NCBI GenBank assembly: GCA_003313425.1 | Contig: NHZP01000010.1 | Coordinates: 248,001 to 312,000, forward strand | DNA length: 64,000 nucleotides | Reading direction: 5' to 3' | From: Pseudopyrenochaeta lycopersici | Taxonomy: Eukaryota; Ascomycota; Dothideomycetes; Pleosporales; Pseudopyrenochaetaceae | In this document: positions 23,401 to 35,205 of the stretch, piece by piece | Position numbering within the stretch: the stretch's first letter is position 1 | Layout: each line of letters opens with the position of its first letter | Notes under the pieces: generated by a model | Databases searched by the model: none | What the model was told of the DNA's origin: nothing | What the model saw: only the letters and a program-made list of their open reading frames with translations | Translations under genes and position numbers: made by a program

Positions 23401-23416
23401 AAAAAAGAGCAAAAAA
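23401..23416 (-). terminator. Pol III terminator of tRNA-Thr
   Basis: On the minus strand two T6 runs (23416..23411 and 23406..23401) start 11 nt behind the tRNA 3' end. T4 or longer is the normal Pol III stop signal, so the gene looks competent for Pol III transcription. Confidence 0.7.
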
Positions 23417-23463
23417 GAAGTGAAGTTTGCCAACTGCCCGAATCGAACGAGCGATCTTCGCAT

Positions 23464-23474
23464 TTCTAGACGTG
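23464..23474 (-). other. Canonical 11-nt tRNA intron (position 37/38)
   Basis: The 11 nt CACGTCTAGAA lie one base 3' of the TGT anticodon, the standard place for eukaryotic nuclear tRNA introns removed by the SEN endonuclease and ligase. Removing it restores a seven-base loop and a five-pair stem. Confidence 0.8.
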
Positions 23475-23488
23475 TACAAGTGCGACGC

Positions 23489-23546
23489 CTGAAGATATGT
23501 TAGGAACGTGATTTCAAGAATGTGTGTTCAGAGTGGTTAGACGTAC
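23489..23546 (-). other. 58-nt spliceosomal-intron-like insert in the D-arm of tRNA-Thr
   Basis: Read on the minus strand the insert begins GTACGT, contains TTCCTAACAT near its 3' end and finishes CTTCAG. GTACG-type 5' sites, CTAAC-type branch sites and a branch-to-AG distance of about 11 nt are exactly what the protein-coding introns of this window show, and 58 nt lies within their size range. Removing exactly these bases restores the D-stem. The first part can also pair with the tRNA D-loop (AGTGGT with ACCACT). It is not at the 37/38 site used by the tRNA splicing endonuclease. Confidence 0.75.
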
Positions 23547-23687
23547 GTTACCACTGCGCCAAGCTGGCTCGATCTGAATCTTGATGATGGCAATTTTGGG
23601 ATGGGTTTAATATATATTTGCAACGACAAGTGTGCGTGGGAAAAGGTGGAGCTCCTGAAACCGAAGCACCTTGCGGGAAACAGATTG

Positions 23688-35123: not shown

Positions 35124-35205
35124 CTCTCAGACGGGGAATCGAACCCCGGCCTCCGGCGAACTGTCTGATGACAAGCCGAAATACTGACCACTATACTATC
35201 TGAGA
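35124..35205 (-). tRNA. tRNA-Asp(GUC) with 10-nt intron
   Basis: The 82 nt fold as a complete tRNA: acceptor TCTCAGA/TCTGAGA (seven Watson-Crick pairs) with discriminator G; D-arm GTAT-AGTGGTCA-GTAT; anticodon stem TCGGC/GCCGG with loop TTGTCA-C, anticodon GTC and T33; variable AGGC; T-arm CGGGG-TTCGATT-CCCCG. A 10-nt intron (TCAGACAGTT) lies between positions 37 and 38, the standard site. The mature form is 72 nt. This ordinary gene is a useful control for the split tRNA-Thr. Confidence 0.95.

Follow-up and report, generated by a model that had tools for sequence, protein, structure and literature searches.

The tRNA-Thr(UGU) gene of Pseudopyrenochaeta lycopersici lies within a stretch of 64,000 nucleotides (nt) from contig NHZP01000010.1 (hereafter the window), and it is interrupted both by an ordinary transfer RNA (tRNA) intron and by a 58-nt insert that carries the signals of a messenger RNA (mRNA) intron. 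The observation is real and recurrent, with at least 19 mRNA-type inserts found in at least 15 nuclear tRNA genes on 13 contigs. In the textbook view, tRNA introns are handled by the SEN endonuclease and a ligase, and the spliceosome is a machine for mRNA (and U6). The inserts described here are best interpreted as spliceosomal introns that lie in tRNA genes. Judging from their sequences, they are very probably U2-type introns in genes transcribed by RNA polymerase III (Pol III), and would be removed by the spliceosome in addition to the normal SEN splicing.

The first-pass annotation of the window had described a 58-nt segment that starts with GTACGT, contains CTAAC and finishes with CAG, together with an ordinary 11-nt intron between positions 37 and 38 (37/38), intact boxes A and B and a T-run terminator. 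All of these features are present as described (Table 1). The same annotation called the remaining tRNA-Thr flawless; removal of the two segments does leave 72 nt, but with 20 of the 21 stem pairs formed, the single unpaired position being 13-22 (C.A). When 123 possible removals from this gene were scored on D-arm structure only, the removal with GT-AG ends was joint best (two ties), so that chance alone is a poor account of the insert. With no bearing on either reading, the unspliced gene is predicted to fold no better than shuffled sequences (z −0.31), and the gene was missed by default ARAGORN and by Rfam. The proposal of an mRNA-type intron within a live tRNA gene is supported and is much the best reading, with splicing by the spliceosome predicted from the sequence.

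Other genes of this kind were sought in the 62.7-Mb assembly (188 contigs) that contains the window, using patterns that joined box B to a T-run as well as the Rfam tRNA model, and loci were chosen by eye as tRNA-like. Two of the pattern lists covered 100 of 294 places (a first, mixed list) and 100 of 237 places (an A57 box B), so that the survey is incomplete and its counts are lower bounds. The Rfam model scored 61 matches, 36 of them nuclear and 25 on contig C107. Our parser yielded at least 61 distinct tRNA-like sequences and flagged 14 for a long insert ahead of the anticodon arm, among which 12 hold GT-AG inserts and two (L064 and L105) do not. Three more genes joined these 12. They are a third Gln-CUG gene, merged by the parser with its near-identical sister; the Asp gene that bears three inserts; and another His gene (His b), which was reached only through a His exon-junction pattern because its box B is split.

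The hosts cover ten amino acids: Thr-UGU, Gln-CUG (three genes), Gln-UUG, Leu-UAG, His-GUG (two genes), Pro-CGG, Pro-AGG (two inserts), Ala-CGC, Glu-UUC, Tyr-GUA, Ile-AAU and Asp-GUC (three inserts). For the first His gene (His a) the parser placed GGC slightly above GTG; we adopted GTG because the second His gene has it and because a tRNA-Ala with GGC is not expected in a eukaryote. The inserts occupy 11 sites, of which 11/12 is used six times, 13/14 three times and 26/27 twice, while 10/11, 15/16, 19/20, 20b/21, 23/24, 30/31, 49/50 and 58/59 are used once each.

Splice signals are uniform across the 19 mapped inserts. Each has a GTRNG donor (GTAAGT in eight, GTACGT in four), a CTRAY branch motif (12 CTAAC, five CTAAT and two CTGAC) with its A 10–12 nt before the end, and a YAG acceptor (CAG or TAG), and their lengths range from 49 to 73 nt with a median of 52. 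As a background, CTRAY lies 9–13 nt from the AG in 210 of 12,822 random AG-ended stretches (1.6%), and none of the 51 introns parsed at 37/38 has GT...AG ends. For 10 of the 12 genes scanned on D-arm structure only, the top-scoring removals included one with GT-AG ends. Within the window, a scan that imposes donor, branch and acceptor motifs at 42–89 nt returned 28 candidate mRNA introns versus 18 in a reversed control, and those with CTRAC numbered 11 versus four. One of these 11 is the Thr insert; the other ten (two overlapping) are 46–63 nt long and are candidates, none of them a proven mRNA intron.

Comparison with paralogues indicates that the inserts are set cleanly into intact genes. 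Without their inserts, the Pro-AGG and Ala-CGC genes are identical to intronless paralogues (L066 and L072), all three genes for Gln-CUG, which use two intron sites between them (19/20 and 11/12), reduce to one and the same 72-nt tRNA, and joined His b is identical to joined His a. Clean presence or absence of the insert between homologues is seen for Pro-AGG, Ala-CGC, Ile, Tyr and Asp. The last three were each compared with one intronless paralogue (L119, L056 and the Asp gene of the window, respectively), and base pairs that span an insert were found to differ on both sides with pairing kept: acceptor pair 6 in Ile, acceptor pair 5 in Tyr, and acceptor pair 5, D pair 3 and anticodon pair 3 in Asp. 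From these sequences, the joined exons look to be under selection. TATA-like elements stand upstream of 7 of 12 insert-bearing genes and 22 of 46 intronless ones, compared with 2.6% of random stretches.

No further Thr-TGT gene, a possibility that the first-pass annotation had raised, was found. A 160-nt query made from the gene matched itself alone in the assembly, as did its 5' half with up to three mismatches, and a CTTGTA...box-B pattern matched 34 places, namely this gene and 33 others, with no tRNA stems at the 25 of the 33 that were inspected, of which 24 are single places and one stands for a nine-member repeat. Within the limits of these patterns, this locus is the sole tRNA-Thr(UGU) gene seen. 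Since Thr-AGU, with inosine, can read ACA by wobble rules, tRNA-Thr(UGU) by itself is no proof that the intron must be removed.

The case is stronger for Gln and His. A 26-nt Gln exon-junction pattern, allowed up to three mismatches, found no intronless Gln gene in the assembly, its sole match covering the intron end and exon 2 of one Gln-CUG gene (Gln c). The corresponding His pattern found two genes, each interrupted by an intron at 11/12, and no intronless His gene. Provided that the assembly lacks no such gene and that no diverged copy was missed, Gln and His codons would be undecodable unless the introns are removed. For Glu-UUC, Leu-UAG and Pro-CGG, only insert-bearing copies turned up, with no search aimed at intronless ones. 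It is likely, though less assured than the identity of the introns, that the spliceosome is obligatory for all tRNA-Gln and tRNA-His, and perhaps for Thr-UGU, Glu-UUC, Leu-UAG and Pro-CGG, acting before or alongside SEN splicing. Production of tRNA in this fungus probably depends on the machinery of mRNA splicing.

Several points weigh against this interpretation. The intron ends were placed with GT-AG already in mind, and in one Gln-CUG gene (Gln a) and in Glu-UUC another removal beats GT-AG on D-arm structure alone, although for Gln a the GT-AG removal is backed by identity with two sister genes. The tRNA-like loci L064 and L105 hold inserts without GTRNG, CTRAY and YAG signals. Joined His pairs at only 19 of 21 positions. 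At pair 13-22, Asp has T.T and its paralogue T.G (the Gln, Pro and Ala tRNAs of this genome also have T.T at that pair), and one Asp pair has changed on a single side, with pairing still kept; the two-sided changes might, moreover, have arisen before the introns were gained. Several insert-bearing genes have a split box A, and His b a split box B, breaks that could reduce transcription by Pol III. Finally, intronless Gln or His copies could be absent from the assembly or differ from the patterns by more than three bases.

The split promoters also bear on an alternative that overlaps with ours in invoking the spliceosome, namely that the loci are additionally transcribed by RNA polymerase II (Pol II) within longer transcripts and that only those copies are spliced. 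This would fit the normal splicing of mRNA-type introns in Pol II transcripts. Against it, T-runs (whose presence at the found genes is due in part to selection, as they belonged to the box-B patterns), box B in all but His b, and TATA-like elements in 7 of 12 genes are positioned as in intronless tRNA genes, and Schizosaccharomyces pombe is described as splicing U6 made by Pol III (PMC8917221). We regard splicing confined to Pol II transcripts as unlikely.

A second alternative, already named in the first-pass annotation, is that intron gain, there taken to be recent, has inactivated these genes while intact copies elsewhere provide the tRNAs. Intronless paralogues are indeed known for Pro-AGG, Ala-CGC, Tyr, Ile and Asp. 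This idea is weakened by the fact that 15 genes share one kind of insert, that every Gln and His gene found carries such an insert and that no second Thr-UGU gene appeared with the patterns used. Exons are intact, five insert-spanning base pairs have changed on both sides with pairing kept, and TATA-like elements are as common as at intronless genes, all of which also led us to reject pseudogenes with decayed exons or promoters. That the genes are dead is very unlikely.

We give slightly less credence still to the idea that the inserts are ectopic bulge-helix-bulge (BHB) introns, cut by the SEN endonuclease and ligated as in the red alga Cyanidioschyzon merolae, which has such introns in D-, anticodon- and T-arms (PMC9602550; PMC4090602). 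Ordinary 37/38 introns do exist in this genome, and when a register shift of up to 2 nt is allowed, 3 of 17 inserts make four central pairs. In the standard register, on the other hand, none of the 17 (the two His b inserts lay outside the test) combines a 4-bp central helix with an outer helix of at least 2 bp, and central pairing totals 26 versus a mean of 25.4 with shuffled partners. Every insert bears an mRNA-type donor, branch site and acceptor, whereas GT...AG ends were absent from the 37/38 introns. Sequencing or assembly artefacts, or foreign DNA, are scarcely credible as a source of 19 different inserts with one signal set at 11 sites on 13 contigs, cleanly set in intact exons.

Table 1. 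Features of the tRNA-Thr(UGU) gene (positions within the window) and related loci elsewhere in the assembly (assembly:contig:positions).
Feature	Position	Strand	Basis
tRNA-Thr(UGU) gene, 141-nt gene body	23428..23568	(-)	
Exon 1, 22 nt: acceptor 5' strand, box A, D-arm as far as C23	23547..23568	(-)	
Box A TGGCGCAGTGG, uninterrupted	23551..23561	(-)	sequence
58-nt spliceosomal-type intron, GTACGT...CTAAC...CAG, between positions 23 and 24	23489..23546	(-)	
Branch-site motif CTAAC; branch A to intron end 11 nt	23499..23503	(-)	
Exon 2, 14 nt, positions 24-37, anticodon TGT	23475..23488	(-)	
Canonical 37/38 intron, SEN type, 11 nt	23464..23474	(-)	
Exon 3, 36 nt, positions 38-73	23428..23463	(-)	
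Box B core GTTCGATTC, intact	23440..23448	(-)	
T-run, Pol III terminator-like, downstream of gene	23411..23416	(-)	
TATA-like element ATATATAT, upstream of gene	23610..23617	(-)	
tRNA-Asp(GUC), L073: three spliceosomal-type introns and a 17-nt 37/38 intron, 246 nt total	G000:C5:1163200-1163700		
Second tRNA-His (His b), L160: two spliceosomal-type introns, one at 58/59 splitting box B	G000:C3:1552350-1552720		
U6 copy with 52-nt intron GTTCGT...CTAAC...CAG, L114	intron G000:C19:201303-201354		
U6 copy without intron, L113	G000:C14:415719-415826		
L064/L162: 79-nt insert in anticodon loop; ARAGORN Arg(CCT), but without U33; not counted	G000:C7:283050-283500		
L105: tRNA-like, long insert without clear branch motif; not counted	G000:C71:158500-158940		
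L110/L161: possible T-arm insert, unusual GTCACG donor...CCAG, no clear branch motif or anticodon; not counted	L161 at G000:C3:1018650-1019200		

Other candidates were set aside. Copies of the insert, as of an introner-like element with many near-identical copies, were not found: the Thr gene with its insert matches only itself, so that it is not a recent introner copy, and of 153 intron pairs compared Gln b and Gln c are alike (z 4.9), with Thr and His a next (z 4.4). Group I and group II self-splicing introns are far longer than 49–73 nt, and no Rfam intron family matched in the window at gathering scores. An ARAGORN run without introns called a second tRNA-Thr(TGT) at 35124-35205 (-) of the window, which is really a tRNA-Asp(GUC) with a 10-nt 37/38 intron. 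Box-B-like places that yielded no tRNA are L057/L091, L063/L090, L065, L078, L087, L088, L092, L097/L130, L101/L131, L102/L132, L103, L106, L112 and L124-L129.

The gene content includes a Fungal_trans domain (below the cut-off), GH125 and Pan3, as well as an adenosine kinase recognized by eye, and suggests a filamentous ascomycete. Contig C107 (G000:C107; 45,414 bases), with its 25 tRNA matches, is probably mitochondrial; some of the matches recur at a distance of about 32.6 kb, a pattern that a partly duplicated contig would give.

The transcription, splicing and order of steps that we infer for the spliceosomal introns would be as follows. Pol III would transcribe the pre-tRNA using box A, box B and the T-run. 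As with U6 made by Pol III, a donor (GTRNGT), a branch site (CTRAY) and an acceptor (YAG) would mark the intron of about 52 nt for the spliceosome. Once the intron had left as a lariat, the D-arm would be free to fold, and the tRNA would be completed by RNase P and RNase Z and, for the 37/38 intron, by the SEN endonuclease. Because inserts in the D-arm hinder the tRNA fold, the spliceosomal step probably precedes the action of RNase P and SEN. Sen54 has been reported to contact the D-arm (PMC4090602).

If this is true, two splicing machines work on the same pre-tRNA (a single 246-nt gene has as many as four introns), and translation depends directly on the spliceosome for Gln and His. Because these genes escaped default tRNA finding, supposedly ‘missing’ tRNAs in the genomes of other fungi may share the same cause. 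The genes would also offer a natural test bed for spliceosome action on Pol III RNA that has no cap, for the gain of introns by structured non-coding genes (sites 11/12 and 13/14 recur), and for the tolerance of box A to an intron. No report of spliceosomal introns in tRNA genes was found in a literature search by title, start of abstract or exact phrase, with most subscription papers beyond its reach.

Among known systems, canonical 37/38 SEN introns occur in the same genes (11 nt in tRNA-Thr), but they differ from the inserts in site, size and signals. The ectopic tRNA introns of C. merolae are marked by BHB junctions (PMC9602550), whereas the inserts here have mRNA splice signals and no BHB in the standard register. 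One precedent comes from lichen-forming ascomycetes, in which spliceosomes remove ectopic introns (one of 57 bp) from ribosomal RNA (rRNA), and a lichen intron is also spliced in yeast ribosomal DNA (PMC8527467). Those hosts are rRNA genes transcribed by RNA polymerase I, unlike the Pol III tRNA genes of P. lycopersici. A second precedent is the U6 small nuclear RNA (snRNA) gene of S. pombe, from whose Pol III transcript the spliceosome takes out an mRNA-type intron (PMC8917221), in keeping with the first-pass remark that such introns are known in fungal U6. One of the two U6 copies in the present genome also has one; the Rfam match to this copy stops within the insert, and the intron rests on comparison with the intronless copy. 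Unlike U6, itself a spliceosomal RNA, the hosts here are tRNA genes for ten amino acids, and a gene can hold as many as three such introns in addition to the SEN intron.
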